Part shown: positions 1-21,312 of the stretch, in pieces
Position numbering within the stretch: the first letter of the stretch is position 1
Layout of the letters: each line of letters begins with the position of its first letter
DNA from: a virus
Virus record (IMG/VR): IMGVR_UViG_3300047560_000067
Location: 1-24,252 of that record
Direction: 5' to 3' (one strand)
Length of the DNA stretch: 24,252 nt
Made by a program: the position numbers and the translations under genes
Notes under the pieces: generated by a model
Database searches by the model: none
Seen by the model: the letters and a program-made list of their open reading frames with translations, nothing else
Told to the model about the DNA's origin: nothing

Positions 1-663
1 ATTTATGCGGGTTCTATTGGCATATTGCCCTATGTTTCAGGCGGCGGCAGTGCTTTGTGGAACCTGACACTCGAATATTCGAGCGATAACATCACTTGGG
101 AGACCTTGGATGACCTCGGAGCGGTCACTGTGACCGATAACGAGTGGATTTGGACGGATATTAACCCCGGTCAGCTCGTGCAGTACTACCGAGTGCGTGC
201 ATCTGGCGGTACAACGCTCGCTTTGCGTGAGTTTTACGTCGGAAACAACTCAACCGAGATCACAATGTCTCGTTTGAACCGCGACGACTATACAAACCTG
301 CCAAACAAGAACTTCACATCGAACCAGCCCTTCCAATTCTGGTTTGATCGCACAATTCCCCAGCCAACTTTGTATTTGTGGCCAGTTCCAAGTGATCCGT
401 TCGTGCAAGTAACGGTGTGGTACAGCAAACAAATCATGGATGTGGGTGCTTTGACTGACGAGCTGTACATCCCAACACGCTGGTACGAGGCCACTTTGAT
501 GATGCTGGCTCACCGCATGAGCCTTGAGTTGCCCGGTGTCGATATGGCGCGTGTGCAGTACCTCGAAGGCCAAGCTGAAAAGTATCTGAATCAAGTTGAG
601 CAAGAAGAGCGCGACAAGTCGCCGATCTACTTCGCACCGAATATTTCGGTGTACACGAGGTAA
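1..663 (+). CDS. Head-tail adaptor-like protein with beta-sandwich region, 5' partial
   Basis: The frame is open from base 1, so the protein begins outside the window; 220 residues are visible. Visible residues 1-85 look like a discoidin-type beta-sandwich, with LEYSSDNITW, YYRVRASGG and REFYVG in the order and spacing typical of such folds. Residues about 88-205 resemble the second half of P22 gp4 / SU10-type phage adaptors: a hydrophobic strand pair (LYLWPVPSD, VTVWYSKQI) followed by two long helices (PTRWYEATLMMLAHRM, then an acidic helix ending EQEERDK). The adaptor at 12215 shares this strand-pair, turn, helix layout. Such proteins form the ring below the portal. The product stops at TAA 661-663, preceded by GAGG that serves the next gene. 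The adaptor assignment is by pattern only. A fibre-attachment or other virion protein is the main alternative. Confidence 0.6.
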   Translation: MYAGSIGILPYVSGGGSALWNLTLEYSSDNITWETLDDLGAVTVTDNEWIWTDINPGQLVQYYRVRASGGTTLALREFYVGNNSTEITMSRLNRDDYTNLPNKNFTSNQPFQFWFDRTIPQPTLYLWPVPSDPFVQVTVWYSKQIMDVGALTDELYIPTRWYEATLMMLAHRMSLELPGVDMARVQYLEGQAEKYLNQVEQEERDKSPIYFAPNISVYTR

Positions 664-1015: not shown

Positions 1016-3199
1016 ATGTCCGCACAAGTAACGATCACGCAATTACCATCCGCTGGCGCTATTACGGGCTCGGAGCTCGTGCCAATCGTCCAGAATGGCC
1101 AAACCGTCAAGACCACGACAGGCGCTATTGCCGCCTCTCCAGCTCAGACACAGACGTTCCTGACCCTCAATCAAGAACCAACACTTCCCAACAGCCGTGC
1201 ATTGGCTGGCAGTACTGGTGTTGGTTTGGTCGATGGTGGTGCGCAGTCTACCCTTCAGATCACCTTAAATGGGGTCTCAGGAAGCCTTGAATCGTCCTCT
1301 AACGGCATTATTGCCAAGACTGGGGGCTCGGTAACAGGACGCACGTTTCAGACGTCTGGAAGCGGTTTAGGCATCTCTAATGCTGATGGCGTATCAGGTA
1401 ACCCAACATTTGCTTTGACAGGTGTTGCGGCTTCCGTTGCCGCGCTGTCTGGCACGGGCATGTTGGCCATGACTGGTGGCGGCACAACAGTGTCTGGCCG
1501 TGACCTTACAGGAACCGCAAATCAGATCACCATCACAAACGGTGACGGCGCTTCTGGTAACCCAACTTTTTCGATTGCAACTAACCCCGCGTTGCCCGGC
1601 ACTGGGGGTGTTGGCCTTCCCACTGGCACGACAGCACAAAGACCTGCATCTCCAAGCAACGGAACATTCCGCTACAACTCGACCACAGGCTTGCTGGAGT
1701 ACTACTCAGCAGGTACTTGGACAGCTCTTGCGGCTGGCTCTGGTGTAACCTCTGTTGCAACTGGTACAGGTCTGACTGGTGGCCCGATCACTTCGACAGG
1801 CACAATTTCAATTGACAATACAGGCGTGACTGCTGGCTCATACGGCGCCGCATCTAAGACATTGACAGCTACGGTCAACGCGCAAGGTCAATTGACAGCG
1901 ATGGCTGAGACCTCTATTGCAATTGCCAATACACAAGTCACTGGCTTAGGGACGATGTCCACGCAGAACGCAAGTGCAGTAGCAGTTACTGGTGGAACGA
2001 TCAACGGAACCTCAATTGGAGCGACTACACCGTCTACTGGTGCGTTCACATCGGTGTCGATGACATCTGGCACGATCACTACAGCTCCAACAAACGGTAC
2101 TGACATTGTCAACAAGGACTATGCAGACTCGATTGCATCTGGTTTGAACTATCACCAGCCAGTCAACTACGCATCGACCACTACACTACCTGCGTACACC
2201 TACAACAACGGCACAGGCGGTATTGGCGCGACCATTACAGCGAATGCCAACGGTGCATTGTCTTTGGGTGGTGGATCACCAACAGCGACTCAGCGTGTTT
2301 TGGTTAAAGATGAAGCTGGCGGCAATGCGGCTTACAACGGTGTGTATGTTGTCACGCAAGCTGGTACTGCTGGCACACCGTTCATTCTGACTCGCGCAAC
2401 AGACTACGACTCATCAGGTTCTGGAACCAATGAGATCGATGCAGGCGACTACGTTTTGGTGATCTCTGGAACACTGGCCTCTACTGCTTGGGTTCAGCAG
2501 ACTGCCCTTCCAATTGTTGTTGGTACGACAGCGTTGTCATTCGTGCAGTTCAATGCACCGATCACGTACTCTGCGGGTACAGGTCTGACGTTAGCGTCTA
2601 CAACTTTCAGCATCACCAACACAGCCGTTACTTCTGGTTCATACGGTGGCGCGGCAACTGTTCCTACATACTCAGTTAACGCTCAAGGTCAACTGACTTC
2701 AGCTACTGACGTTGCAATCGCTATTGCAGGCTCTCAGATCACTTCTGGAGCTGTGGCCATAGCAAACGGTGGTACAGGTCAAACAACTGCCTCTGCTGGC
2801 TTTAACGCGCTTTCTCCGATCACCACGACAGGTGACCTGATCATCGGTAACGGAACCAACAGCGCAACCCGCTTGGCTATCGGAACAAATGGTTATGTTC
2901 TAACATCCAACGGAACCACAGCTACTTGGCAAGCATCTACAGGTGGTGTCACTACCTTCAGTGGCGGAACAACAGGATTGACTCCTGCAACCGCAACCGC
3001 AGGTGCTATCACACTGGCAGGAACCCTTGCTATCGCTAACGGCGGCACAAACTCAACCGCTACACCGACTGCTGGTGGAGCTACTTACGGCACGGGTACA
3101 GCCATTGCATATACAGCGGCTGGCACAGCAGGTCAGGTATTAACATCAGCGGGTGCAAGCGCCCCAACATGGTCTGGAATTAACGGAGGAACTTTCTAA
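1016..3199 (+). CDS. Modular tail fibre protein
   Basis: A 727-residue Thr/Ser/Gly/Ala-rich beta protein typical of phage fibres. The N-terminus (about 1-40) has ITQLPSAGAITGSELVPIV, a frequent opening of environmental phage fibres and a likely virion anchor. A repeat containing NADGVSGNPTF / NGDGASGNPTF follows. About 200-235 is a segment ending RYNSTTGLLEYYSAGTW. Two related modules at about 248-312 and 519-580 each carry GTGL, SGSYG-like and VNAQGQLT motifs. Between them, at about 375-515, lies a compact domain with RVLVKDEAG, NGVYVV, TRATDYDSS and FVQF, known from many fibres. The C-terminus carries IANGGTGQTTAS and ends GGTF. No intramolecular chaperone or collagen-like segment is visible. 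The stop overlaps the next start (TAATG). Start at ATG 1016 has a weak ribosome site and is probably reached by coupling. Confidence 0.85.
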   Translation: MSAQVTITQLPSAGAITGSELVPIVQNGQTVKTTTGAIAASPAQTQTFLTLNQEPTLPNSRALAGSTGVGLVDGGAQSTLQITLNGVSGSLESSSNGIIAKTGGSVTGRTFQTSGSGLGISNADGVSGNPTFALTGVAASVAALSGTGMLAMTGGGTTVSGRDLTGTANQITITNGDGASGNPTFSIATNPALPGTGGVGLPTGTTAQRPASPSNGTFRYNSTTGLLEYYSAGTWTALAAGSGVTSVATGTGLTGGPITSTGTISIDNTGVTAGSYGAASKTLTATVNAQGQLTAMAETSIAIANTQVTGLGTMSTQNASAVAVTGGTINGTSIGATTPSTGAFTSVSMTSGTITTAPTNGTDIVNKDYADSIASGLNYHQPVNYASTTTLPAYTYNNGTGGIGATITANANGALSLGGGSPTATQRVLVKDEAGGNAAYNGVYVVTQAGTAGTPFILTRATDYDSSGSGTNEIDAGDYVLVISGTLASTAWVQQTALPIVVGTTALSFVQFNAPITYSAGTGLTLASTTFSITNTAVTSGSYGGAATVPTYSVNAQGQLTSATDVAIAIAGSQITSGAVAIANGGTGQTTASAGFNALSPITTTGDLIIGNGTNSATRLAIGTNGYVLTSNGTTATWQASTGGVTTFSGGTTGLTPATATAGAITLAGTLAIANGGTNSTATPTAGGATYGTGTAIAYTAAGTAGQVLTSAGASAPTWSGINGGTF

Positions 3200-3906: not shown

Positions 3907-4767
3907 ATGTCTCTTATGAAAGTTGGCGGAGTTCTCTCCGTTGGACGTGATGGCATCAATTCACCTGTAACGCAGGTGGAGTACCTTGTCGTGGCTGGAG
4001 GTGGCGGGGGTGGTGGCACTCGAAACAATAACGGAAATGGAATGAGTGGCGGTGGTGCTGGTGGTTTGTTGACTGCACAAGGCTATCCCATAACTATCGG
4101 TTCTTCTATTACTGTGACCATTGGCGCTGGTGGTGCAATTTTAACGAACGGTACTAATACCGTTTTTGGGAACATTACTGCTTCTGGTGGTGGTTATGGT
4201 ACTGATGGTGGTGGCGGTACTGGAGGTTCTGGCGGTGGCGCTGGTGCTGGCAGTGGTCAACCTACAGGAGCATCAGGTGTTGCTGGTCAAGGTAATGCAG
4301 GCGGTGGGCAAAGTACTGGCGCTGGAGGCGGAGGTGGCGCAGGCTCAGTTGGATTAACTGGAAGTGTTAGTAATGGTGGTGTAGGCGGTGCAGGCATTAC
4401 TTCTAGCATTACAGGCTCACCAATTCAATATGCTGGAGGCGGCGGTGGTGGCGGAAACGGTACTGGCAATGGGTATCTTGGCGGTTTGGCTACTGGTGGT
4501 GGCGGTAATGGCGGCGACTCTGCATACAGTTTTACGACATTTGCACAGAATGGATTAGCAAACACTGGTGGCGGTGGGGGCGGTTGTGCGGGTTCGGGTT
4601 CAACTAATTACAACGGTTATGGTGGTGCAGGTGGTTCAGGTATTGTGATCATTCGTTACCCATCGTATTTAAATGCCGCCGCATCAACAACAGGTTCTCC
4701 TGAAACATACATTGCAGGTGCATGGCGCGTGTACAAGTTTGTTGCCTCTGGCACTATCACATTCTGA
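3907..4767 (+). CDS. Glycine-rich tail fibre/adhesin, copy 1
   Basis: A 286-residue protein. A short anchor of about 25 residues leads into a glycine-rich domain. Anchor motifs in order are VEYLVVAGGGGGG, GGGAGGLL, TVTIGAGGA, a VFGNITASGGGYG segment, GGSGGG, GQGNAGG, GGGGGAG, YAGGGGGGG, NTGGGGGG and SGIVIIRYP. The C-terminal part has TTGSPETY and a closing strand YKFVASGTITF. Such domains can pack as polyglycine-II helices, as in the phage S16 gp38 receptor-binding adhesin, so a surface-exposed host-binding role is likely but not proved. AGGAGG at 3896-3901 precedes the ATG. It shares the domain with the genes at 4774, 6235 and 7768. The single cysteine in the late GGGGGGC segment is unusual within the set. 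Confidence 0.8.
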   Translation: MSLMKVGGVLSVGRDGINSPVTQVEYLVVAGGGGGGGTRNNNGNGMSGGGAGGLLTAQGYPITIGSSITVTIGAGGAILTNGTNTVFGNITASGGGYGTDGGGGTGGSGGGAGAGSGQPTGASGVAGQGNAGGGQSTGAGGGGGAGSVGLTGSVSNGGVGGAGITSSITGSPIQYAGGGGGGGNGTGNGYLGGLATGGGGNGGDSAYSFTTFAQNGLANTGGGGGGCAGSGSTNYNGYGGAGGSGIVIIRYPSYLNAAASTTGSPETYIAGAWRVYKFVASGTITF

Positions 4768-4773
4768 GGTTTT

Positions 4774-6225
4774 ATGGCAAACGGTTTATTTAATCTCAAA
4801 CAAGTCGTTCAAGCTGTTCAGCAAGGTGGATGGCCTGCTCAAAAAACTCCAGCAGTTGAATATTTAGTTGTCGCTGGAGGTGGCGGTGGTGGTAATGGCG
4901 GCGGCGGCGGAGCTGGTGGCTTACTCGCTGGCGTTAGGTCTGTGGCTAATGGGCAATCACTTTTAGTTACCGTTGGCAGTGGCGGAAATGGTTCAACGAC
5001 AGCCGCCGCAGGGGTTACTGGTGGTAACTCAGTATTTGGAAATATTTTAGCCAACGGTGGTGGTGGAGGCTCTGGCTATCAAACCGCTGGAGCGGCAGGT
5101 GGCTCTGGAGGTGGTGGTGGTCGTTCTGATGTAGCTGGTGGTTTGGGTGGCTCTGGAATTTCTGGACAAGGAAATTCAGGTGGCAAAGGTTTAGACACAT
5201 CAAACAATGCTTCTGGAGGTGGCGGCGGTGCTGGAACAATAGGTCGCCCTGCTCTTTTTTCTGGATATTCTGGAATTGGTGGTACTGGAACAGCGTCTGC
5301 TATTTCTGGAACTGTTACAACTTATGCTGGTGGCGGCGCTGGATATGGCGCAACAAGCGGAGCGGTTCAAGCAGGTGCGGGTGGCGGAGGTTCAGGTGCG
5401 GCTGGAACAGCCAATACTGGAGGCGGTGGTGGCGGTAGTGGTTCTGGCACTGGATACAACGGCGGCTCTGGTATTGTCATTATTTCGTACCCAGACGTAT
5501 ATGCGGCCCCAACAGCTACAACAGGTTCGCCAACTGTAAGTACAAGTGGATCGGGTAGTGTTAACTTTGCAACTGCTGGATATTTCAGTACAGGCACTGG
5601 AACCGCTCCATCACAATCTGGTGACTTTACACTTGAAGGTTGGTTCAATCTTTCTACATTTAACCCCGGAGGTGGCGGTTATGCTTTGTTTGGGGGGACA
5701 ACTTCAGGAGCAAATTACTTTGGTATTAAGGGTACAAACATTGTCATTAACAGCGCCACAACAAGCGCAGAAAAGTTAATTGCTTGCACTTTGCCTTCTA
5801 CAAATACTTGGTTTCATTATTGCCTGATGAGGTCTGGATCAACTTTGTATGCTTTTTTAAATGGCGTATTACAAGGATCATCTACTTGGACTGATGTTTT
5901 GTTTTCTGCTGGAAGTTTGTTAGTTGGTGGCTATGGTTCTGCAACTTATATTTGCCCCGGTTATATGTCAAATTTAAGGTTGACAAATACGGCGGTGTAT
6001 TCAACATCTGGCTTTACTGTACCAACATCGCCTTTAACCAGAGTAACAGGAACAGCCCTTTTAATGAACACTGTGTCAGGCGCATATGCCGCTGATTCAA
6101 CAGGAACATGGTCTTTTCTTAATCTTTACACTGCTCCAACATGGAACGCTTTGTCACCATTCACAGGTACAGGCTACAAAAACCGTGTGTACACTTGGAC
6201 ATCCAGTGGTTCAATCACCTTCTAA
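4774..6225 (+). CDS. Glycine-rich adhesin with LamG-like domain
   Basis: A 483-residue protein with three parts. Residues 1-28 are a short anchor (LFNLKQVVQAVQQGGW) of the kind also at the start of the 7768 gene product. Residues about 29-245 are a glycine-rich domain with the same motif order as its neighbours, from VEYLVVAGGGGGG to SGIVIISYP. Residues about 260-430 look like a LamG / concanavalin A-type sandwich: FTLEGWFNLS, a short GTTSGANYFGI segment, NTWFHYCLMRSGSTLYAFLN, LLVGGYG, GYMSNLRLTNTAVY and ALLMNT. This order (EGW, WxHxxxxR, YxNG, xxIxxxR) is typical of the Laminin_G_3 family, which usually binds sugars or proteins. The last 20 residues return to the YTWTSSGSITF strand that closes the other copies. 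TGA 4765-4767 overlaps a GAGG ribosome site. Confidence 0.8.
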   Translation: MANGLFNLKQVVQAVQQGGWPAQKTPAVEYLVVAGGGGGGNGGGGGAGGLLAGVRSVANGQSLLVTVGSGGNGSTTAAAGVTGGNSVFGNILANGGGGGSGYQTAGAAGGSGGGGGRSDVAGGLGGSGISGQGNSGGKGLDTSNNASGGGGGAGTIGRPALFSGYSGIGGTGTASAISGTVTTYAGGGAGYGATSGAVQAGAGGGGSGAAGTANTGGGGGGSGSGTGYNGGSGIVIISYPDVYAAPTATTGSPTVSTSGSGSVNFATAGYFSTGTGTAPSQSGDFTLEGWFNLSTFNPGGGGYALFGGTTSGANYFGIKGTNIVINSATTSAEKLIACTLPSTNTWFHYCLMRSGSTLYAFLNGVLQGSSTWTDVLFSAGSLLVGGYGSATYICPGYMSNLRLTNTAVYSTSGFTVPTSPLTRVTGTALLMNTVSGAYAADSTGTWSFLNLYTAPTWNALSPFTGTGYKNRVYTWTSSGSITF

Positions 6226-6234
6226 GGAATTAAC

Positions 6235-7383
6235 ATGAGCGATAGATTGGGTGGTTATATTGCAGGACAGAACATCAATGTAGGTATTGGTACGTTCACG
6301 GCTGTAACTTCACCGACATTCACATTTGCTTCAACACAGGCTACACCTGATGTTGGTCAACCTGTTCAATTCGTGACTACTGGCACATTGCCAACTGGCT
6401 TGTCATTGAACACGACATACTATGTCATTAGTAAAAGTACAAATACTTGCCAATTCTCCACAACTCAAGGTGGTTCTGCTGTCACGTTCACAAACAGTTC
6501 AGGTTCTGGCACTCACACTGCTGTAACCCAACGCGCATTTAATCCTTACGCTGGCGCACCTGATACCGTAGAGTATTTGGTGGTTGCAGGCGGTGGCGGT
6601 GCGTCTAACTCTTATAGTTCAGGTGGCGGTGCTGGTGGTTTACTAACCGCCACTTCATTTGCGGTACCTACAGGAACTGCACTAACTGTAACTGTTGGTG
6701 CTGGTGGTGCTGGTGGTGTTGGTGGCTCTAGTGGAAGTCTTGGAGCCCAAGGAAGCAGTTCAGTATTTAGTTCAATAACTGCTACTGGTGGCGGTTATGG
6801 TGTTTACGGCAACTATGGTTCTGCTGGCGGTTCTGGCGGTTCTGGTGGTGGTGGCTCAGGTTACGATGGTGGTGTAGGTGGCGCAGGAACATCTGGACAA
6901 GGTAATGCTGGTGGTCAAGGCGCGGGCAGTCTTGTAAAAGGCGGCGGTGGTGGCGGCGGTGCAGGCGGTGTTGGCGGTAATGGCTCAAACCTTGGAAGTG
7001 CAGGCAATGGTGGGACTGGTATTTGTTCAACTATTACTGGTTCAAGAGTTTTTTATGCTGGCGGTGGCGGTGGCGGTGCTGAAACTACTGGTGGCACTTA
7101 TAACGCAGGTTTGGGCGGTGCTGGTGGAGGTGGCGCAGGCGTAGCTGGTGCAGGCGCTAATCCCCCAGTAATAAGTCCTAATAACGGTGTAGCCAACACT
7201 GGTGGCGGAGGAGGCGGTGCGCCTCAATACTCTGCTGGTGGCGCAGGCGGTTCTGGCATTGTTATCGTGCGTTACCCACAAATTAACTCAGCCCCAGCAA
7301 TGGTGACAGGTTCGCCTCAAGTGAGCTATGCTGACGGTTATCAAATTTACACTTGGACTTCTTCTGGTTCAATCATTTTCTAA
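6235..7383 (+). CDS. Glycine-rich adhesin with N-terminal beta module
   Basis: A 382-residue protein. Residues about 15-100 form a small beta module with DVGQPVQFVTTGTLPTGL, LNTTYYVISKS and a GGSAVTFTNSSGSGTHT ending; a related module lies inside the nozzle protein at 14106. Residues about 113-345 are a glycine-rich domain (VEYLVVAGGGG, GGGAGGLL, TVTVGAGGAGG, SVFSSITATGGGYG, GQGNAGG, FYAGGGGGG, NTGGGGGG, SGIVIVRYP). The end carries VTGSPQVSYADGY and the closing strand YTWTSSGSIIF. The beta module replaces the short anchors of the other copies, so it may mediate attachment or add a second binding surface. TAAGGA at 6223-6228 fuses the previous stop to the ribosome binding site. Host receptor binding is inferred from domain type and context. 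Confidence 0.78.
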   Translation: MSDRLGGYIAGQNINVGIGTFTAVTSPTFTFASTQATPDVGQPVQFVTTGTLPTGLSLNTTYYVISKSTNTCQFSTTQGGSAVTFTNSSGSGTHTAVTQRAFNPYAGAPDTVEYLVVAGGGGASNSYSSGGGAGGLLTATSFAVPTGTALTVTVGAGGAGGVGGSSGSLGAQGSSSVFSSITATGGGYGVYGNYGSAGGSGGSGGGGSGYDGGVGGAGTSGQGNAGGQGAGSLVKGGGGGGGAGGVGGNGSNLGSAGNGGTGICSTITGSRVFYAGGGGGGAETTGGTYNAGLGGAGGGGAGVAGAGANPPVISPNNGVANTGGGGGGAPQYSAGGAGGSGIVIVRYPQINSAPAMVTGSPQVSYADGYQIYTWTSSGSIIF

Positions 7384-7392
7384 GGAGCAACT

Positions 7393-7752
7393 ATGAGCCA
7401 TTTCGCAAAAGTAGAAAACGGTGTAGTGACGCAAGTCATTGTCATCGAGCAGGACGTTTTAAATCTTGGTCATTGGGGAGACCCAGCATCTTGGGTTCAG
7501 ACCTCATACAACACACAAGGTGGAGTTCACCGTCAAGGCGGTACACCATTGCGTAAAAATTACGCTGGCATTGGTTACACATACGATTCTGTTCGTGATG
7601 CGTTTATACCTCCCCAGCCATACGCTTCATGGGTATTGAACGAAGATACTTGCTTGTGGGATGCCCCTACAGCTATGCCAACCGATGGCAAAATGTATAC
7701 ATGGGACGAACCCACAACTGCATGGGTTGAAGTCGTAGCCCCAACAGCCTAA
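7393..7752 (+). CDS. Conserved phage protein of unknown function, cyanophage type
   Basis: A 119-residue protein, aromatic-rich and not repetitive, unlike its neighbours. Visible motifs in order: FAKVENGVVTQVIVI (an opening strand pair), WVQTSYNTQGG, GGTPLRKNYAGIGYTYD, RDAFIPPQPYASWVLNEDT, CLWDAP and a closing DGKMYTWDEPTTAWVEV. From memory this series of motifs occurs in a small uncharacterised protein common in marine cyanophages and other environmental phages, often beside tail-fibre genes; no function is assigned to it as far as I know. TAAGGAG at 7381-7387 fuses the upstream stop to its ribosome binding site. Its place between two glycine-rich adhesin genes suggests a fibre cap, fibre chaperone or accessory virion protein. 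The coding call is firm, the role open. Confidence 0.75.
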   Translation: MSHFAKVENGVVTQVIVIEQDVLNLGHWGDPASWVQTSYNTQGGVHRQGGTPLRKNYAGIGYTYDSVRDAFIPPQPYASWVLNEDTCLWDAPTAMPTDGKMYTWDEPTTAWVEVVAPTA

Positions 7753-7767
7753 TCTTCGGAGCAAAAG

Positions 7768-9501
7768 ATGCCAACATACAACGGAATGTGGACACTGAGT
7801 CAAGTCAGTCAGGCGGTCAAAAACCTGAATTGGACGGGTGTGCCTCCGTCTGTTGTAGAGTATCTTGTTGTTGCTGGCGGCGGTGCAGGTGGTTGGAGTA
7901 TTGGAGGCGGCGGAGGTGCGGGCGGCCTTCTGGCTGGATACGCTGGTATTACATCTGGCACTTCTTATTTTGTAACCATTGGTGCTGGTGCTACTGGTGT
8001 AAGTTCGGGTACAACTAGACCAAGTGGCAATGATTCTGTTTTTGATGCTACAAGTAATGGAGCATACACAGGACGCATTGTTGCTTCAGGCGGAGGTGGT
8101 GGCGGTATTTATGCTACACAGCAATTTGGAGTTGCTGGCGGCTCTGGTGGTGGCGCTGGTGGTGGCACTTACCCAAATTATGCAGGCGGTGCTGGAGTTG
8201 TAGGCCAAGGAAATGCTGGTGGAATAAGTCGAGATGGTGCTACCGTTTGGCAAGGTGGCGGTGGCGGTGGCGCTGGTACTGTGGGTATGAGTGCAACTGT
8301 AAACGCCTCGTATAACCCATTAAATGGCGGCGCTGGAATTGCATCTGCTATTTCTGGCGCTGTAACAGCATACGCTGGTGGTGGTGGCGGTGCAAACTAT
8401 GCTGGCGGTGCAAATGGTCTTGGCGGTGTGGGCGGTGGTGGAGCATCTGGCGGAACAGGTGGGCCATCGACTGGGGTCAGTGGTACTGCCAATACAGGCG
8501 GTGGTGGAGGCGGAGGTACATTTAATGGAACTGGCGGAAATGGCGGTTCAGGCATTGTCATTGTTCGCTACCCCGGCTCAATTCAATATTTCACTGGTGG
8601 CACAGTAACTTATGCCGCTGGTTGTGTCGTTCATACATTCACATCATCGGGCACATTTGCTCCAACAACGCCAACTAACTTGCTTCAAGCTAATACAGTT
8701 ATTTTCTTCTCGTCAAACACGTGGACAGCCCCTGCTGGTGCAACTCAAGTTCAGTACTTAGTTGTTGGCGGTGGAGGTGGTGGCGGAAGTTTAATTGGTG
8801 GCGGAGGTGGTGCTGGTGGTTTCCGTACTGCTACAGGCTTCTCTGTTACTGCTGGCACAACTTACACAGTTACTGTGGGTGCTGGTGGCAATGGTAATGG
8901 TTATACCAATACTGGTGGTCGTGGTGTCAATGGTACCAATGGCGGAGATTCTGTTTTTAGTTCAATAACTTCTACAGGCGGTGGCGGTGGTGGCGGATAC
9001 AACTATTTAGGAACTTCTATTGGTAGTGCTGGATCTGATGGTGGTTCAGGAGGTGGTGGTGGCGCAAGTGACTCCACAACACCAGCAGGTGGCGCGGCTA
9101 CCCCAGTAACTAGCCCAGTACAAGGCTATGCTGGCGGCGCAGGAAAACAAGGAACTGGCGTTTGGGTTGGCGGCGGCGGCGGCGGAGCAAGTGCGGCTGG
9201 TACTGCTGGTAGTAGTACACCTAATGGCGGCGCTGGTACAGCCTCTTCTATCACTGGCACATCTGTAACTTATGCTGGAGGCGGAGGCGGTGCCGCTTTG
9301 GGAGGCTCTTCTGGTGGGGCTGGTGGTTCTGGTGGTGGCGGTGCAGGTGCAATATCAGGAGCGGCTACTGGCGGTTCTGGCTCTCAATATGCTGGCAACG
9401 GTACTGCATTTACTGGTGGTGGTGGCGGCGGTGCGGCATATACAGATGGTGGACGTAGCGGCAACGGCGGCTCAGGCATCGTAATTCTCAAATGGAGTTA
9501 A
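7768..9501 (+). CDS. Double glycine-rich adhesin
   Basis: A 577-residue protein with two tandem glycine-rich domains. Residues 1-28 form a short anchor (MWTLSQVSQAVKNLNW) resembling that of the 4774 product. Domain A, about 29-270, runs from VEYLVVAGGGAGG to SGIVIVRYP and is followed by a partial closing segment, VVHTFTSSGTFAP. A linker with NTWTAPAGATQ leads to domain B, about 330-577, from VQYLVVGGGGGGG to SGIVILKW, where the protein ends without a closing strand. This looks like fusion or duplication of two adhesin genes. Domain B ending at LKWS, rather than RYP plus the cap, marks it as a shortened copy. A GGAG ribosome site lies at 7758-7761. Probable tail-associated receptor binding by analogy to polyglycine adhesins. 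Confidence 0.8.
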   Translation: MPTYNGMWTLSQVSQAVKNLNWTGVPPSVVEYLVVAGGGAGGWSIGGGGGAGGLLAGYAGITSGTSYFVTIGAGATGVSSGTTRPSGNDSVFDATSNGAYTGRIVASGGGGGGIYATQQFGVAGGSGGGAGGGTYPNYAGGAGVVGQGNAGGISRDGATVWQGGGGGGAGTVGMSATVNASYNPLNGGAGIASAISGAVTAYAGGGGGANYAGGANGLGGVGGGGASGGTGGPSTGVSGTANTGGGGGGGTFNGTGGNGGSGIVIVRYPGSIQYFTGGTVTYAAGCVVHTFTSSGTFAPTTPTNLLQANTVIFFSSNTWTAPAGATQVQYLVVGGGGGGGSLIGGGGGAGGFRTATGFSVTAGTTYTVTVGAGGNGNGYTNTGGRGVNGTNGGDSVFSSITSTGGGGGGGYNYLGTSIGSAGSDGGSGGGGGASDSTTPAGGAATPVTSPVQGYAGGAGKQGTGVWVGGGGGGASAAGTAGSSTPNGGAGTASSITGTSVTYAGGGGGAALGGSSGGAGGSGGGGAGAISGAATGGSGSQYAGNGTAFTGGGGGGAAYTDGGRSGNGGSGIVILKWS

Positions 9502-12214: not shown

Positions 12215-12850
12215 ATGACGACCGCAAGTGTTATGACCTATGACAGTTTGGTCGAGAACATCCAGTCTTATCTGGAGCGTACAGACGCCGCCACGCTGGA
12301 CAAAATCCCCCTTTTCATCATGTTGGCCGAGCAGGTCATTGCCTCCCAGATCAAATTCTTGGGCAACCTGACTGTCAACACCAGCACAATGACAGCCGAC
12401 CAGAACGTCATTGACAAGCCAGCTCGTTGGCACAAAACCGTCTCCATGAACATCACAGTTGCTGGCCAGCGCCAGCCAGTTTTTAACCGCAGGTACGAAT
12501 ACCTCCGTGAATATTGGCCAGACCCTGCCGCAACGGACGTTCCCAAGTTTTACTGCGATTACGACTACACCCACTGGATGGTGGCGCCCACCCCTGACGT
12601 GGCCTATGATTTCGAGGTTTTGTACTACGAGCGGGTCCAACCCTTGGACAGCTCCAATCAGACCAACTGGTTCACCATTTACGCCCCTCAAGCACTGCTG
12701 TACGGCTCACTGCTTCAGGCCATGCCTTTCCTCAAGAACGACGACCGCATTCCCATGTGGCAGGCGCAGTACAAGCTGATCATGGACGTTCTGACAGCAG
12801 AGGACAAGTTGCGTATTGCAGACCGTCAGGCGGTCGCCAATGACAGTTAA
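12215..12850 (+). CDS. Head-tail adaptor, SU10/P22 gp4-type
   Basis: A 211-residue protein with the layout of phage adaptors. The N-terminal half has MTYDSLVENIQSYLERTD, then a PLFIMLAEQVIASQIK helix that packs on the portal and a strand-rich region with TVNTSTMTADQNVIDKPARW. The second half has YCDYDYTHWMVAPTPDVAYD, FEVLYYERVQPLD and the helix pair TNWFTIYAPQALLYGSLL / WQAQYKLIMDVLTAEDKLR. The order (helix, PxRWHK, WP-type strand pair, APQALLYGSLLxA) is that of the SU10-adaptor/gp4-like family that forms a ring between portal and nozzle. The next genes are a fibre and the nozzle, as expected. A related protein is encoded at 1-663. Confidence 0.75.
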   Translation: MTTASVMTYDSLVENIQSYLERTDAATLDKIPLFIMLAEQVIASQIKFLGNLTVNTSTMTADQNVIDKPARWHKTVSMNITVAGQRQPVFNRRYEYLREYWPDPAATDVPKFYCDYDYTHWMVAPTPDVAYDFEVLYYERVQPLDSSNQTNWFTIYAPQALLYGSLLQAMPFLKNDDRIPMWQAQYKLIMDVLTAEDKLRIADRQAVANDS

Positions 12851-12858
12851 GGACTAAC

Positions 12859-14106
12859 ATGAGCTACAACTCACCATTCACAGGCAACGTCGTCCAGCCG
12901 ACGGACGTTTCTTACCGTGCTGTTACGCTGAGCGCTAACACCCAGTTACAGTGGCCAATCAACGGTAACGCTACCGACGACTACGCCGCTCGCATCATGC
13001 AGGTTACGGCCACCACAACGGGCCTGAGCCTGTATATGCCGCCTGCAAACCAAGCTTCTGTCGGTAACGACGCGATGATCCGCAACATTGGATCAAACAC
13101 GTTCACTGTCAAAGATTTTGGCGGCGCAAACACCATTGTTTCTATTGCCGCTGGTGAGTCAAAATACGTCTACATCACAGCAAACCCCACAACAACGGGT
13201 ACATGGGGCAATATCGCTTTTGGTGCTGGTACATCCTCTGCCGATGCTGGAACTTTGGCTGGACTTGGTTTAGTTGCAAGTGGCCCAACCCTGAATGTCA
13301 GCCACCCTGCTCAGGCCTTGGTGAACGCTGGGACCTTTGCAACTACTGATCGTGCCCAGACATCGATCTGGACTGGCGGTGCAGGTACGTACACATTGCC
13401 TTCTGTTTCAACTTTAGGCAACAACTGGTTTACGCTGTTCAAAAACAGTGGCACGGGCTCCATGGTGATCTCAGCCGCTGACAACATTGATGGCGCCTCT
13501 ACCAAGACTTTTGCACCGACTGAGTCTGCATTTATTGTATGTACAGGCACAACCTATATCACTGTCGGTTACGGTGTCAGTTCACAGTTCTTCTACACCT
13601 CTTTGGTGAAATCTGTTTCAACTGGTACATACACGTTGAGCGCCAGCGAAGCATCAAACACCATTCAGACCTTCACAGGAACCTTGACTGGTAACGTGAC
13701 AATCGTTTACCCACCTGTGGTGAACTTGTATGTGATCAAGAACGCGACAACGGCTGGTGGGTACACCTTCACCGTGGGTACTGGTTCTGGTACGTCTGTG
13801 ATCATTCCTTCTGGCCAACAGGTGACTTTGGCTTGCGACGGAACCAACTTCTTCAACGCCAACACCTCTCAAGCTGGTGCTGTAACCACCCTCAGTTTGG
13901 CTGATGGTTCTGTTGCTGTCCCCTCACTGAACTTTGGTTCTGAAACCAGCACTGGTTTGTACCGTCCAACGGCTGGTACGTTAGGTATTGCTGTGCTTGG
14001 ATCTAACGTTGTGGACATCGATGCTACGGGTATGAGCGTCACTGGCAACGTATCTGCCTCTGGCACAGGCACTTTTGAGGCAGGCATCTCAGGCGGTACA
14101 TACTAA
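12859..14106 (+). CDS. Tail fibre with three beta modules
   Basis: A 415-residue beta protein rich in Thr/Gly/Ser. Three related beta modules lie at about 20-118, 169-237 and 251-335. Each has a TYTL-like opening, a Leu/Tyr strand with a proline pair, an N(S/A/I)G/T-type turn and a GQ or GES-type strand (AAGESKYVYITAN; PTESAFIVCTGTTYI; PSGQQVTLACDGTNFF). A distinct fibre motif follows (about 350-405): LADGSVAVPSLNFGSETSTG, then LYRPTAGTLGI and VDIDATGMSVTG, seen in many fibres as the (A/V)PS-F-GS-TG(I/L)Y-P segment. It ends GISGGTY, like the GINGGTF end of the 727-residue fibre. The stop overlaps the nozzle start (TAATG). TTAAGGA at 12847-12853 precedes the ATG. Confidence 0.82.
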   Translation: MSYNSPFTGNVVQPTDVSYRAVTLSANTQLQWPINGNATDDYAARIMQVTATTTGLSLYMPPANQASVGNDAMIRNIGSNTFTVKDFGGANTIVSIAAGESKYVYITANPTTTGTWGNIAFGAGTSSADAGTLAGLGLVASGPTLNVSHPAQALVNAGTFATTDRAQTSIWTGGAGTYTLPSVSTLGNNWFTLFKNSGTGSMVISAADNIDGASTKTFAPTESAFIVCTGTTYITVGYGVSSQFFYTSLVKSVSTGTYTLSASEASNTIQTFTGTLTGNVTIVYPPVVNLYVIKNATTAGGYTFTVGTGSGTSVIIPSGQQVTLACDGTNFFNANTSQAGAVTTLSLADGSVAVPSLNFGSETSTGLYRPTAGTLGIAVLGSNVVDIDATGMSVTGNVSASGTGTFEAGISGGTY

Positions 14107-16349
14107 TGACAAAAAAAGTCTTTGCCCTTGACACGAAGCCGGGCATCCAGCGCGATGGTACGGTGTTCGACAAAGACTTCTACAACGATGGCCGCTGGGT
14201 CAGGTTTCAGCGTGGCCGCCCTCGTAAGGTAGGTGGCTATACGCAGATCACGGACGGCTTGTCTGGACCTTCTCGCGGCATCTACGTCAACCCACAGCAG
14301 AACTTCAACAACGTCTTCAGTGGTCACTCACAGGGCTTGCAGGTTGTTCCTATCGACAACAACGGTGTGGGTGCTGGCGTGACTGACATGACGCTGTCTA
14401 ACTTCACTTCGTCTGACAATAACTTGTGGCAGTTTGATACGTTCTATGACGTTAGTGGTTCTGGTAACAATTTGTTGCTTGCGCACCCCGGCCAGAATCT
14501 CTCCCTAATTGACAACAACGTCAACACCCCCGTATTGGGTGGCTCAATCACTGGCACAACCCTGTCTGAAATTGGCGTGTTTACTGAGTCGGTGTATTTG
14601 AACAGCACCACGACCATGTATCTGTCAACGACAAGCCTTTTGATTGGGGCTGGCCAGTCCATCTCTGGTACTGGCATTCCATCAGGCACGACTGTCGTTT
14701 CTTCAGCCCTTGCTGTGCCCATTTTGAATGCTGTGGCCGTGACTGGCACGGCTGGCCAGTGTTCATGCACAGCAACAACAGGCCTATATGTTGGCCAAAC
14801 TGTGGCTGTTACTGGTACTTCAACTGGAACTGCAACAGGCCTTACATCTGGCGTGACGTACTACATCATCGCCACCAACTACTCGACAACTTTCACGCTG
14901 TCTGCCTCATCTGGCGGACCAGCAATCACGACAACTGCTGGCTCAACCACAGGTCTAGTTTTCACAATTAGCCAGATCCAAAACGTGACAATTTCAGCCG
15001 CGGCCACAACTTCTGGCGCGTCTACGATCACGTTCAACAACAACATTTCCGTCTCTGGCGGCGTTGTTTCTCTGCACCCATACGTGTTTGTCTACGGTAA
15101 TGACGGCCTGATCAAGAATTGCTCAGCAGGCAATATCCAAGACTGGGTCTCTGCGGACGCAAATGAGGTCTCTGTGGCCACAGGAAAGATTGTCCAAGGC
15201 CTACCAGTGCGCGGCGGCTCAAACGCGCCTTCTGGGCTGTTTTGGAGCCTTGATAGCCTAATCCGCGTGTCCTACATCGGCGGATCTGGTACTCCCCCCC
15301 AGTATTGGCGTTATGACTTGATCTCTTCTCAGTCCTCCATGCTGTCTTCTCAGTGTGTGATTGAGTACGACGGTATCTACTACTGGATCGGTGTTGACCG
15401 TTTCTTGCTTTACAACGGTGTTGTGAAGGAAGTCCCAAACAACATGAACCAGAACTACTTCTTTGACAACCTGAACTACGACGAGCGCGAGAAGGTTTGG
15501 GTGTCCAAGGTTCCTCGTTACGGCGAGATCTGGTGGTTTTACCCACGCGGAAACGCTACGGAGTGCACAGATGCAATCATTTACAACGTGCGTGAGAACA
15601 CTTGGTACGACGCAGGCCAAGCTCTTGGTGCTCGTCGCTCTGCTGGTTTCTTCTCTCAGGTCTTCCACTATCCAGTGGCCGCGTCTTGGGAACTAAACGC
15701 GATTGGTGGCGTGAATGCCATCACCAAAACCGCAGGCGGAACGCTTTACACCAACGGAACCTACACAAACCAAGCGCTGACAGGCGGAAGCGGATCTGGT
15801 GCTACAGCAACGATTGTGGTGGCTGGTGGAACCGTTACGTCTGTCACGATTTTCAGCAAGGGCAAGGATTACGTAGTGGGGGACACCCTCTCCGCTACTC
15901 TGCCTGCTGGCTCAGGTTTGATCATTACGGTCAATCAAGTCGTTAATTTTGTATCGTTGTGGCAACACGAGATTGGTACTGACGCTGTGCAGAACACCGA
16001 AGTGTTGGCCATCGAGTCTTACTTTGAGACGAATGACCTTGGCTGGGTTTCTGGTGGACCTTCACAGCCTGCCCCAATAGGTGATAACAAGTGGATTCAC
16101 TTGGAGCGCCTAGAGCCTGACTTTTTGCAAGACGGCGAGATGGAGCTGTACGTAACTGGCCGCCCATTTGCTCAGTCTGATGACAAGACGACTGGCCCCT
16201 ACGTATTTGAGCCCAACACGAACAAGATTGACCTGCGCGAACAGCGCCGCGAACTTCGCTTGAAGTTTGTTTCTAACGTGGCTGGTGGAAATTATCAGCT
16301 CGGCAAGATCCTGATCGACGCAGATACAGGAGACGTGCGTGGCTACTAA
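14106..16349 (+). CDS. Tail nozzle/hub protein, gp10-like beta-propeller
   Basis: A 747-residue protein of the P22 gp10-type class, the propeller below the adaptor that completes and closes the tail. The N-terminus has DGTVFDKDFYNDGRWVRFQR and KVGGYTQITDGLSG, then propeller-type repeats (RGIYVNPQQNFNNVFSGHSQ). The propeller resumes at about 325-533 with YVFVYGNDGLIKN, SIDW-like QDWVSAD, YWRYDLISSQSSMLSSQ, YYWIGVDRFLLYNG and IWWFYPRGN. Two stretches look inserted. About 150-320 carries SISGTGIPSGTTVVSS and GLTSGVTYYIIATN modules; about 534-615 carries GGTLYTNGTYTN, GSGSGATATIVVAGG and YVVGDTLSAT. The C-terminus has KWIHLERLEPDFLQDGEM and RELRLKFVSN. Its place after adaptor and fibre supports the call. 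Confidence 0.78.
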   Translation: MTKKVFALDTKPGIQRDGTVFDKDFYNDGRWVRFQRGRPRKVGGYTQITDGLSGPSRGIYVNPQQNFNNVFSGHSQGLQVVPIDNNGVGAGVTDMTLSNFTSSDNNLWQFDTFYDVSGSGNNLLLAHPGQNLSLIDNNVNTPVLGGSITGTTLSEIGVFTESVYLNSTTTMYLSTTSLLIGAGQSISGTGIPSGTTVVSSALAVPILNAVAVTGTAGQCSCTATTGLYVGQTVAVTGTSTGTATGLTSGVTYYIIATNYSTTFTLSASSGGPAITTTAGSTTGLVFTISQIQNVTISAAATTSGASTITFNNNISVSGGVVSLHPYVFVYGNDGLIKNCSAGNIQDWVSADANEVSVATGKIVQGLPVRGGSNAPSGLFWSLDSLIRVSYIGGSGTPPQYWRYDLISSQSSMLSSQCVIEYDGIYYWIGVDRFLLYNGVVKEVPNNMNQNYFFDNLNYDEREKVWVSKVPRYGEIWWFYPRGNATECTDAIIYNVRENTWYDAGQALGARRSAGFFSQVFHYPVAASWELNAIGGVNAITKTAGGTLYTNGTYTNQALTGGSGSGATATIVVAGGTVTSVTIFSKGKDYVVGDTLSATLPAGSGLIITVNQVVNFVSLWQHEIGTDAVQNTEVLAIESYFETNDLGWVSGGPSQPAPIGDNKWIHLERLEPDFLQDGEMELYVTGRPFAQSDDKTTGPYVFEPNTNKIDLREQRRELRLKFVSNVAGGNYQLGKILIDADTGDVRGY
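16328..16341 (+). promoter_or_regulatory. Ribosome site and GTG start for the 87-residue gene
   Basis: AGGAG at 16328-16332 lies 6 bases before GTG 16339. The GTG is within the last codons of the nozzle gene (TAA 16347-16349), so initiation is coupled and the unusual GTG is preferred over any internal ATG. Confidence 0.6.
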
Positions 16350-16602: not shown

Positions 16603-19600
16603 ATGGCACTTTACGAATCACTTTCATCTTCAAGCACGCCTGAAGAAATTGCCGCCGCATACAAAGAATTTGCTGGCTTGGCTGGCGGGGATACTGCCGC
16701 CGTTCAGAAGCAGGCTGTTGATTATTTGAGTGCTTTGGGCGTTGCCGCACCAGCCATTACGCAAGCCTATAACATCTACACAGCGCCGCCAACAAATACG
16801 GGTGCATTGTCTTCTGTAGATACTGGTAAAGGTGACATTCTTAACGACACGTCTGGTGTTGTTAATAACGCAGGCACTGGCGCTTTATCTAAGGCTACAG
16901 GCACCACTGGGGGAACAAGTGGGGGAACAACTGGCGCGCTGGAAACTGCAACAGGCACCAGTGGTTTAGCCTCGACCACCAACCCATACGACTTGATCAA
17001 CAGCGCGTGGATGAATGGTGACTTTGCTGGCACGTCAAACATTATCAAATCAGCTGGTTTAACGCCAGCTCAAGTCAAGGCCTATTACGGGCTAGATGAC
17101 GCAACAATGAACTACGTGATGGGCACTGGTGTGTTTGGAGCACCAACGCCTACACCTGTTGTTCTTGCTCCAACGCCAACACCTAGCGCGCTTACCCCAA
17201 CTCCAACCCCAAATGCTTCTGCGGTTGTTACTGGCGAAACAAAGACTTATACACAGGCCGAAGTCAATCAAGCGCTAAATGACTTATTAGCAAAAGATCC
17301 AAAAGCCAGTAAAGCTGACATTCTGGCCGCGGCGGCGGCTTTGGGAATTAGTGCTGATCAAGTAAATGCCGCGTTCATTACTCGAGACGCAAATAGCCTT
17401 AAATCAACACCAACACCGACACCAACGGCAACCAGCAAGCCAGAGGACTTGGTCACCTATGGCAATTTGAATATAAAGCTTGATAAGAATGTCCTGTCAA
17501 ACCTGACAAGCCAAATTCAAACCATCACCAATTTGACTGGTGCAAATCAGTATTGGAATGGTGGTGCTTTTTCTGCTGGACAAGGTGCAAACATTGGTTT
17601 TGATGCAACTACTGGCGCAAATATTTTGGGTCTGGACAGCATCAACAATCAACAGCAAGTTGCATTGGACATGGCGGCTTTCTTGGCCTCCAAGGGCATT
17701 ACAAACCTAAACCAAATTGGCTACGGCGACATCATGGGCAACGTTAATGTTCGTCAAGAATATGACGACAACGGCCAGCCAACAGGTAAATATTTTAAAT
17801 GGGACACTAAAACTGACACGTGGGTTCCTGTTGACGAAAAAGATGTTCGACATGTCACCAACTACAAGGCGGATGGTGAAGAAGACACATTAGTTACAAC
17901 TGGCAGGGTTGGCGAAGGTGTTATCAACAAAAAAACTGGAGAAGCTGTAACCGACGGAACAGGTAAGTTTGGTGCAACTTATACAGGTGACGGTGGTACA
18001 GAGTACAGAATTCAAGTTGACAAAAGTACAGGCCTGCCAATCTTTTACACAAACGGTGTAAGCAGTAACACGCTTGCTGGCATCATGTCAGACCTAGGTC
18101 CAATCGGACAAATTGGTCTTGCTATTGCCACCAGTGGCATGTCTATTCCTGCTCAAATTGGCACACAGTTTGCCCTTCAGGTTTTGAGTGGTCAGGACGT
18201 TGGAGCCGCAGTTAAAAATGCATTGGCCTCTTACCTTGGCAACGAAATTCTAACCACCACTAGTATTGCTGACATTACCAAACAGCTCAATGCAATTGAC
18301 TCTTCAGGTATGTTGGCAAAGGCATTCCAAGGATCTGTTGTTGGTGCAACCAAAGGCGTGGTGACTGGCCAAGACGTATTCGACTCAGCCAAGATTGGTT
18401 TTATTCAAGGCGGAACGAGTGGCGCCGCTGACGCTATCTTGGCCAACTTTGGTGATCAGTTGAGTGGTTTGTCAAAGACACAGCAAGCCGCACTGAAGAC
18501 ATTGATCACTGGCACGCTAAGCAACAAGCCTTTAGATCAAACTTTGATTGACAGTATTATCAGTGGCGTAACAACACAGATAAAACAAGACAAAGCTACA
18601 AATAATGAAATAAAAACAAAGAATGCAGGAATTGTTGTTGGTACTGACTCCAGCGGCAATCCAATTACTCTTGATCAGACATTGTCGAATTTAGACTCAA
18701 TGTTGGCATCAAGCGCAAACTTGGGTACTTATGCGGCCATAAATAATGGCGTTGTCAGTGATGCTGGCGGTGGAAATAAACCAACACTTCCAATTGCTGA
18801 AATTACAAATACTGCCAAGCAAGGCGAACCCGGATACGGTTGGAAGTATTACAGCGACGGCACAGCCATCTCTCCAAATGGTACGTATTACTATGAAGGT
18901 GAAGTTGTATCTTTGTCTGACCAAGACAAGGCCCAGTACTTAGCAGGATCAGCGGCAAAACAAGCCGCCGCCATGCTGGTAAATAGCCCACAAATGGTCA
19001 ATACTTTGTCGGGAAAAATATCTGCAACAGAATTGCCCGGCGTCCTTGATACTCTCAAAAATTGGTGGGCTATTAACCCAGCATCTCAATATAAAAATGC
19101 CAATGAAGTTGACACTGATGCATTCAGAAGTTATTTAAAAGCTCAAGGAGTTTCAGAGTCAAACATTAACTATATTGCTGATGCGGCAAAAACTGCTGTT
19201 GGCGAGCTTATTGATAAAACAAAAACCGATACAGAAACATCAAAATCTAAAGCAACTGACGTTTTAAAAACGATTGGTGATAAAGCCGCCACAACTGAGG
19301 CTGATGCGGCGACTACCGCACAAAATCTTCTTAAAACAATTAGTTCAAATTCTTTGGCCGCTTCTACCCAAGCACAGCAAGACGCAACTCGTATTTTGCG
19401 AGATCTTGCAATTAAGTCTGGTCAAGGCGGTTTTGTTAGCACAGACATAATTAACGGTTTATTTAACGCTTTTAGTAGTACAGCTAAAGCTGGATCAAAT
19501 GACCCAGTAGAAATTGTAAAAAATCTGTTTACAAATGCAGATGCTTCTGCCCTTCAACGTTTTGGCCCGGGCGTGGTAGATGACTTAATTGGTGTTCTTG

Positions 19601-21312
19601 GTTCTGATTGGGCAAGATCTGGCGGTAATGCTCAGTTCATTAACGAGTTAACAAAAACTATTTTGACGGACCCATCTAATCAAGATTGGCAAGATGCTTT
19701 TACAAAAGCAACTGGTTACGATTGGACTGAAACGCCAGAAGGTAAGGCTTGGGCAAACAGAACAACACTTGCTCCAGAGGGCAGTATTCCAGCAGACCTT
19801 GGTGAAGGTTTAAAGGGGTACTACGATCCAAAAACTGGCAACTACTATACCCTTGACGGTAAAAAATGGTATGGCGAAATTACAGTTATTGGTACACGAG
19901 TAACACCTGCTGTCACACCAACACCAACTCTTAAAGCGACAGACCTTGATCCAAATATCATTGTCTTGCCTACTGTTAAGCCAACTGTCACGCCAGTTGT
20001 GACGCCTGTTTCTACACCCTCCGTCACGCCTACTGCAACTCCGAAACCTGCGGTGGAGCCAAACGCTACGCCGACACCTAGCTCGACGCCTACACCTACG
20101 TCCACGCCTTCTGTAAGGCCAACGCAGATACCAACGCCCACGATTGAGGTTACGCCTACAGTCAAGCCTACCGTTACCCCAACGCCAAGCGTGACCCCTA
20201 GCGTGACCCCAACACCGAGCACAACGCCCAGTGTTACACCCACGCCTAGCATTACACCGACTCCAAGCGTAACGCCCAGCATTACGCCTACGCCGTCTGT
20301 AACCCCAAGCATTACCCCAACACCAAGTGTCACCCCAAGCGTAACTCCTACGCCATCAGTGACACCGAGTGTCACGCCGAGCGTTACGCCCACAACAAAA
20401 GTTACACCGACCGTGACGCCAACTGTCACGCCGCCTACGCCTACGCCTACGCCGCCAGTCACTCCGACGCCTACGCCTAGCATTACGCCGACGCCTACAC
20501 CGCCTAAGCCAACGGTGACGCCTACAGTTACGCCTACAGTAACTCCTACTGTCACGCCTACGCCAACGCCAACGCCTACTCCTACACCAAAGACTTCTGC
20601 GCCGTCATCGGCTGGCTTGCAGGCGGCGATGACATCTCCCGGTGTATCTGGGACAATTGAGCCATTGAAAGCTGTAATGCTTCAGGCATTCATGACCAGA
20701 GACAAATTCAAGGACCCTCTGGAAAAATTGCATTTAATACAGGAAGCCTCTGGTAAGGCTGAGCAAAATATGATCGATCAAGGTATTAACCCAAGACTGG
20801 CCCAGATCATGGCTGACCGCATGACTGACGACGTGTCCAACCAAGCTGGTGTTGAGTCCCCTGTGGATAACACATGGCGATATGGCCAAGCACCAGAAAA
20901 CCTTGACGATCTGTTTGGTCAAAAACAAGAGCTGGCATTCAAGCAGGGTGGCTTTGTAGCCCCCTTGCAGATGGCCTCTGGCGGTGCTATGCCCCTACCC
21001 CTGCTGGTCAAGTCTGGTGGCGCTCTGGGGGCTTTACCAAGAAGCGATGGCAGATTAGACTTCAGGCATGGCGCTCACGTTGCTGGTGAGGGTGACGGGC
21101 AGTCTGATGACATTAAAGCAATGCTGGCTGATGGCGAGTTTGTGTTCCCCGCGGACGTGGTTTCTGCGCTCGGAAATGGCTCAACGAAGGCTGGATCAGA
21201 TAAACTATACGAAATGATGCATTCAATTCGAGAACGCGCACGATCCAAGGGCCCCAAGGACCTGCCGCCACCTGCATTGAAGTCACCACTTGATTACCTG
21301 AAAAAACGGTAA
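16603..21312 (+). CDS. Giant internal/ejection-type virion protein with Thr/Pro rod
   Basis: 1569 residues. The N-terminus has three related helical segments (about 13-58, 129-172, 217-257) with a LG(V/I)-xx-(V/I)-xx-A(F/Y) core, separated by TPTP linkers at about 180-205 and 268-276. Residues 280-480 are a mixed domain with a [14 protein letters not shown] segment. About 495-625 is Gly/Ala-rich and hydrophobic ([34 protein letters not shown]), as in membrane-active ejection proteins. A coiled, Ala/Lys/Thr region spans 850-985. A Thr/Pro rod of about 230 residues (1101-1330) repeats TP(S/T)(V/I)TP units. The C-terminus has a [13 protein letters not shown] stretch and [20 protein letters not shown], a C-terminal tag seen in many phage proteins. 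Its start follows the previous stop directly, with a weak ribosome site. An ejection or internal virion role is inferred from position. A fibre-like rod is the alternative. Confidence 0.65.
19903..20595 (+). repeat. Thr/Pro repeat-coding region
   Basis: About 230 codons encode tandem TP-x-x-TP units, with variants [18 protein letters not shown] and TPTPTP. The DNA is an array of ACG/ACC/ACA, CCT/CCA/CCG and GTC/GTT/ATT triplets with degenerate copies, densest at 20160-20590. Expected to be a stiff, extended linker. It is flanked by ordinary coding sequence within one frame. Confidence 0.9.

Follow-up and report, generated by a model that had tools for sequence, protein, structure and literature searches.

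The window analysed here is the whole of a linear IMG/VR record (IMGVR_UViG_3300047560_000067; 24,252 bases), in which frame +1 runs uninterrupted from base 1 to a stop codon at 661-663, over 220 codons. As the record is linear and the frame is open from its very first base, the gene is truncated at the contig end, and window positions 1-663 hold the 3' part of an adaptor gene. The features on which the argument turns are these:

1-255, + strand: C-terminal 85 residues of an inserted F5/8 type C (discoidin/CBM32) domain, placed by register to residues 137-221 of the intact relative L004, by the CBM32 fold match of the model and by absence from insert-less relatives.
256-660, + strand: adaptor scaffold 3' of the insert, namely beta region (EITMSRLNRDDYTNLPNKN...), two C-terminal helices and tail, placed by PF24175, by hhalign with an insert-less homologue and by the matches of that homologue's model to phage portal-tail and neck chains.
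613-660, + strand: conserved, low-confidence C-terminal tail (DKSPIYFAPNISVYTR), with pLDDT <50 at residues 341-356 and low entropy.
1016-3199, + strand: fibre-like protein downstream of the insert-bearing adaptor, 727 aa, in the same place as the 'phage-related tail fiber protein' of MW202545.
12215-12850, + strand: second, canonical insert-less SU10-type adaptor, 211 aa (PF24175, E 2.7e-24).
14106-16349, + strand: probable nozzle protein, 747 aa (phrog_3287, 'head and packaging, virion structural protein', E 2.7e-30).

The intact form of the cut gene can be read from its relatives, of which tblastn finds at least 595 among 599 pattern-matched stretches. One of them, L004 (9593-10660), encodes 356 amino acids; the window protein begins at its residue 137 and so corresponds to residues 137-356 in L004 numbering. 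The intact relatives, 16 of which were aligned, share one order: helices at about 1-92 together with the first strands, an F5/8 type C domain at about 93-221, what remains of the beta region plus the C-terminal helices at about 222-340, and a tail at 341-356. Past the contig end lie the N-terminal helices and the first 44 or so domain residues. The first-pass annotation of this DNA had taken window residues 1-85 (nucleotides 1-255) to be discoidin-like, and that extent stands, but the N-terminal third of the domain is missing from it; the full gene, recovered from relatives, runs to about 356 codons. The last 17 residues have low mean entropy in three of four clades, and by analogy with SU10 (PMC9509320) the tail DKSPIYFAPNISVYTR is a candidate for one that embraces the portal.

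The scaffold is that of an adaptor. Residues 73-206 of the window protein match PF24175 SU10_adaptor (E 1.9e-6; 28.9 bits, cut-off 27), as do 15 of the 16 intact relatives at E <= 1, with L004 itself scoring 25.4 bits, slightly below the cut-off of 27. Relatives that lack the insert occur in Roseobacter phage CRP-901, ct2G2228, ct7L0027, Alcaligenes phage QDWS535, Planktothrix phage Pag-Yong1 and a Bealeia plasmid. hhalign joins the insert-bearing proteins to the CRP-901 type with 99.9% probability (E 5e-33) and leaves the insert as a gap, which falls between strands 80-90 and 102-104 of the insert-less model. That model, of moderate confidence (pLDDT 74.6), has the helix bundle, beta region and C-terminal tail of the adaptor fold, and at E <= 0.001 it picks out 15 PDB chains, each belonging to a phage portal-tail, neck or tail structure. 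The highest-ranking VIA row is 9k09_d (Z 12.7, rmsd 6.2, 192 residues aligned). Since the insert-less form exists in other phages and matches solved portal-tail and neck chains, the gene encodes a portal-tail adaptor in which one beta-hairpin has taken up an extra domain; the usual beta region is retained and the F5/8 domain is an addition to it. A fibre or baseplate protein, the outcome that would have told against the first-pass annotation, was rejected on the same structural rows. In MW202545 the insert-bearing adaptor gene lies between the major capsid and fibre genes, as in SU10, while the upstream side of the window is truncated.

The insert itself, about 130 residues long, is a complete F5/8 type C domain in the intact relatives and retains the invariant core residues. 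AlphaFold2, run on 38 aligned sequences, gave a model with a mean pLDDT of 80, in which the ten-residue blocks of the insert (residues 91-220) reach 88-94; this model and the insert-less one are both of monomers. VIA-align superposes model residues 91-219 on the CBM32 7d2a_A (Z 16.5, rmsd 2.3, 123 residues), and the best structural rows for the insert are CBM32, CBM62 and other sugar-binding modules. The best Foldseek rows are likewise carbohydrate-binding modules (2jda_B, E 3.7e-7), and APC10/Doc1 is also among them. F5_F8_type_C is matched by 15 of the 16 intact relatives (best E 1.8e-5), although L004 (21.0 bits) and a Megaera protein, L228 (24.6 bits), do not reach the curated PF00754 cut-off of 28.2 bits. 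Searches of PDB sequences gave only weak matches with a profile, the best being a CBM32 at E 0.019, and nothing useful with query A8. The recurrence of F5_F8_type_C in 15 of 16 relatives, together with the structural match to CBM32 and CBM62, rules out a chance resemblance; the insert is assigned by its predicted fold, without certified membership of PF00754. The proposal of the first-pass annotation, a discoidin-type beta sandwich fused to a gp4/SU10-type adaptor, is thus borne out by the fold prediction and CBM32 match of the insert and by the portal-tail and neck matches of the scaffold, the N-terminal part of the window protein being a beta sandwich by prediction, and we regard the anatomy of an adaptor with an inserted F5/8 domain as close to certain. 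A BFVD search with the whole protein gave A0A6J5RSL2 (TM 0.73) and, lower down, a tail tubular protein A. Over its full length the model also aligns there with other uncultured-phage proteins, about 300-455 residues long, so adaptors bearing additional or different inserts may be widespread.

The combination of adaptor and F5/8 domain is common, being found on hundreds of environmental viral contigs, in cultured Caulobacter phages and in phage-like blocks on Rickettsiales plasmids. A search for adaptors with the same insert, which the first-pass annotation had suggested, brought out four insert-bearing clades: the window's own type (g1), the Caulobacter RW-type, the Megaera-type and the L314-type, the last three with relatives in 178/179, 89/98 and 129/142 of the stretches scanned, respectively. 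Named members are MW202545 and four Caulobacter phages. Two plasmids of Candidatus Megaera polyxenophila (CP113869.1 and AP017967.1) carry the insert-bearing adaptor, in one case annotated 'Discoidin domain-containing' and lying inside a terminase-to-adaptor gene block. It also occurs in three MAG contigs labelled Betaproteobacteria or Burkholderiales (3/113 stretches), where binning is weak evidence of the host. A scaffold tree of 28 rows, built without five intended rows that were missing from the alignments used, needs three changes, two of them forced by well-supported branches, and long branches meet in it; the insert may have had one origin or more than one.

Each clade collection held the best loci of a scan, at most 80 per scan, and counts were made on full-length distinct proteins only: 125 full-length of 140 loci and 98 distinct for g1, 78/80 and 56 for RW, 71/79 and 47 for the Megaera-type, 74/80 and 51 for the L314-type, and 79/80 and 46 for the insert-less CRP type. 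Among near pairs (scaffold distance <= 0.10) the insert diverges faster than the scaffold in all four clades. Divided by the scaffold distance, the insert distance comes to 1.82 in g1 (bootstrap 1.66-1.96; 597 near pairs), 2.29 in the L314-type (2.00-2.66; 432), 4.68 in RW (3.67-5.94; 207) and 6.67 in the Megaera-type (5.95-7.63; 801), and none of the four bootstrap ranges includes 1. Codon statistics, taken from 600 random pairs per clade, show pN of the insert elevated in 4/4 clades, with the insert in frame and pN/pS < 0.6. The median synonymous divergence of the insert in near pairs is 1.97-fold in the Megaera-type, 1.38 in RW, 1.15 in g1 and 0.69 in the L314-type, the g1 and L314-type figures coming from 11 pairs each; the raised values are as expected from recombination, and that of the L314-type is not raised. 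The insert-less clade has no comparable hot spot, its most variable 20-residue block standing at 0.14 and the hairpin block at 0.10.

In the window's own clade the contrast is mild. A hypervariable insert was looked for in g1 and not found: a first entropy count, on a set built by a different rule (127 full-length, 100 distinct), gave no excess, and near pairs gave the 1.8-fold difference. By entropy the g1 insert is conserved nearly like the scaffold, certain stretches of the scaffold are as variable as the insert, and the insert is under purifying selection (pN/pS 0.26).

In the Megaera-type clade the insert is swapped or mosaic and moves as a cassette. At scaffold identities of at least 95%, inserts are less than 65% identical in 159 of 327 Megaera-type pairs; with the limit at 80%, this holds for 76/152 RW pairs, 6/146 L314-type pairs and 0/268 pairs in g1, where no swapping is seen. 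When loci with the two main Megaera insert types are compared (3 x 3 mixed pairs), DNA identity, about 0.9 along the locus, drops at the insert to about 0.45 and is regained beyond it, while pairs of the same type (4 and 4) keep 0.91-0.95 across it. The converse is seen between L389 and L316, whose inserts are 77% identical between flanks of 45% and 33%, the edges being marked by a sharp rise in DNA identity near codon 97 and a sharp fall at about codon 228-229. One protein has half its insert from each Megaera type; three records (L349-L351) carry it in identical form, so a single misassembly does not account for it.

The window holds further genes around this locus. The second adaptor matches SU10 gp11 (7z47_A) at E 5.7e-5, or 1.1e-9 by profile, and lies close to the probable nozzle gene, whose role is suggested by its occupying the position of a gene annotated 'phage stabilization protein' in MW202545. 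A profile of the second adaptor matches 39 of 41 records, including 33/33 of the insert-bearing ones (one of these 33 matches is a 46-residue stub at a contig edge); the two records without a match are ct2G2228 and QDWS535. SU10 itself gives two matched pieces, both in one gene. Both window adaptors match PF24175, and hhalign between them (A4, A6) finds no significant match (probability 0.14). Ralstonia phage GP4 has two adaptor proteins, gp81 and gp82 (cited in PMC11945409), and crAss001 stacks several paralogous rings (PMC10172136); by analogy, the two adaptor genes make a two-ring stack plausible here. On the Megaera plasmids CP113869.1 and AP017967.1 the second-adaptor match carries an in-frame TAA, so these phage-like blocks may be decaying.

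Beside these, the window encodes at 667-1014 a 115-aa protein with paired cysteines and no Pfam or PHROG match, which from its sequence looks like a small zinc-binding protein. At 16603-21312 lies a 1569-aa protein, likewise without a Pfam match, that has a long threonine-proline repeat region at about 20.0-20.6 kb. Four closely spaced glycine-rich proteins (3907-9501; PF21722 Gly_rich_2, E 2.6e-20, 1.4e-16, 1e-19 and 1.1e-44), one of them with a Laminin_G_3 domain, may form a tandem array of alternative adhesins. At the loci L389 5316-6377 and L229 26111-27199 a patatin gene is of note: in L389 the gene after the insert-bearing adaptor has a patatin-like start, a name we give by inference, and a patatin-annotated gene lies downstream on AP017967.1.

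What might such an insert do? The adaptor would form a ring, probably of 12 subunits, beneath the portal and would thereby display about 12 lectin-type domains around the neck, presumably facing outward. Each could then serve as an exposed recognition module that binds a putative host-surface glycan weakly, with avidity, during adsorption, and that is exchangeable as a cassette on an unchanging structural scaffold. We hold this mechanism, a ring-displayed exposed domain whose ligand is most likely a host-surface glycan, to be about evenly balanced between right and wrong. Against it, F5/8-type folds also bind proteins, as in the case of APC10, which is among the Foldseek rows; relaxed constraint, or co-evolution with a partner in the virion, could likewise lie behind the fast change; and in g1 the acceleration is mild, 0/268 near pairs have inserts below 80% identity and purifying selection acts. 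Because the g1 insert is only mildly accelerated, recognition in the window's clade would be inferred from homology. A further step, in which the ring is a neck-mounted receptor-binding device whose exchangeable lectin-type cassette aids host recognition independently of the tail fibres and is traded at domain edges, is possible, if decidedly tentative.

The main rival to recognition is fibre docking: the insert would hold the N-terminus of a tail fibre or spike in the manner of the SU10/T7-type dock domain and co-vary with the fibre. The long fibres of SU10 do sit on a dock domain of the adaptor (PMC9509320), the insert here lies within the beta region, and a fibre-like gene follows soon after the insert-bearing adaptor in both the window and MW202545, although the window product (1016-3199) matches chiefly phrogs without function and the L228 copy of the variable downstream gene in the Megaera-type clade has no Pfam match. 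At 36 Megaera-type loci, in a test on this one neighbouring gene, a putative fibre, the insert is weakly associated with the first 200 columns of the downstream gene (scaffold-corrected partial r 0.11; 11/999 permutations as high), and for the remaining columns, where the variable part lies, no clear association is seen (partial r 0.04; 105/999). Strong co-evolution was thus looked for at these loci and not found. The downstream protein, moreover, opens with much the same motif whichever Megaera insert type stands before it, and with the ordinary beta region also in place docking need not involve the insert. The idea of the first-pass annotation that the sandwich might dock fibres is consequently not supported, and we consider docking doubtful.

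Two other readings fare less well. The insert could act structurally, as a brace resting on the capsid vertex or on the second adaptor ring: the adaptor of roseophage R4C has an N-terminal Ig-like domain that touches the capsid (PMC10276861), and the g1 insert is nearly as conserved as its scaffold. If it braced conserved partners, however, the insert would not be expected to outpace the scaffold in divergence by a factor of 4.7 to 6.7, nor to be swapped, and many relatives manage without any insert, which makes a brace unlikely. It could also be a passenger tolerated at an exposed hairpin and changing under relaxed constraint, as the raised pN in 4/4 clades would allow and as the alignment of other viral proteins of about 300-455 residues with the whole model suggests, since the hairpin may accept inserts. 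The insert, however, stays in frame with pN/pS < 0.6 and its invariant core residues, and among full-length members each clade shows a narrow length range and no loss of the insert, within collections that required full-length matches; a mere passenger seems very improbable.

Adaptors are regarded as conserved parts of the head-tail junction, and here such a part bears a fast-changing lectin-type cassette. If the insert binds host glycans as proposed, host recognition would be partly encoded in the neck and would be missed by host-range models that read only fibres and spikes. The cultured Caulobacter phages (RW and relatives) make the recognition idea testable, and the Megaera-type alleles offer natural domain swaps for comparison. 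The literature searched, mainly openly accessible papers, describes neither a portal-tail adaptor with an F5/8 domain nor the exchange of such a domain; the parts are already known, and within that literature the combination and its exchange are what appears new.

Among known systems, SU10 gp11 and the T7/KP32-type adaptors (PF24175; PDB 7z47, 5mu4) share with the present protein the helix bundle, beta region and C-terminal tail, and SU10 also shares the gene order, after the major capsid gene and before the fibre gene. They differ in that here a domain of about 130 residues of F5/8 type C sits in a hairpin, sequence similarity is low and the genome has a second SU10-type adaptor gene. The premise of the first-pass annotation that adaptors consist only of helices and short strands is too narrow: those of SU10, T7 and KP32 carry a fibre dock domain (PMC9509320), and the ring proteins of crAss001 have a beta-sandwich domain (PMC10172136). 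Roseophage R4C likewise adds a beta-sandwich domain to a dodecameric adaptor, as the present protein would if it too is a dodecamer, but the R4C domain is an N-terminal Ig fold bound to the capsid, whereas the F5/8 domain here is internal, and the available part of PMC10276861 reports no exchange. More than one adaptor-type protein per virion, which the two adaptor genes here suggest, is described for crAss001 and for GP4 (gp81/gp82); the adaptor-type chains matched in that group have about 200-240 residues, too short for the insert, and stacking in the present phage would be by analogy. CBM32 and F5/8 type C domains, finally, have the fold in common with the insert (Z 16.5 to 7d2a_A; Pfam matches under the cut-off), but this one sits inside a phage adaptor and not in a glycan-acting enzyme.
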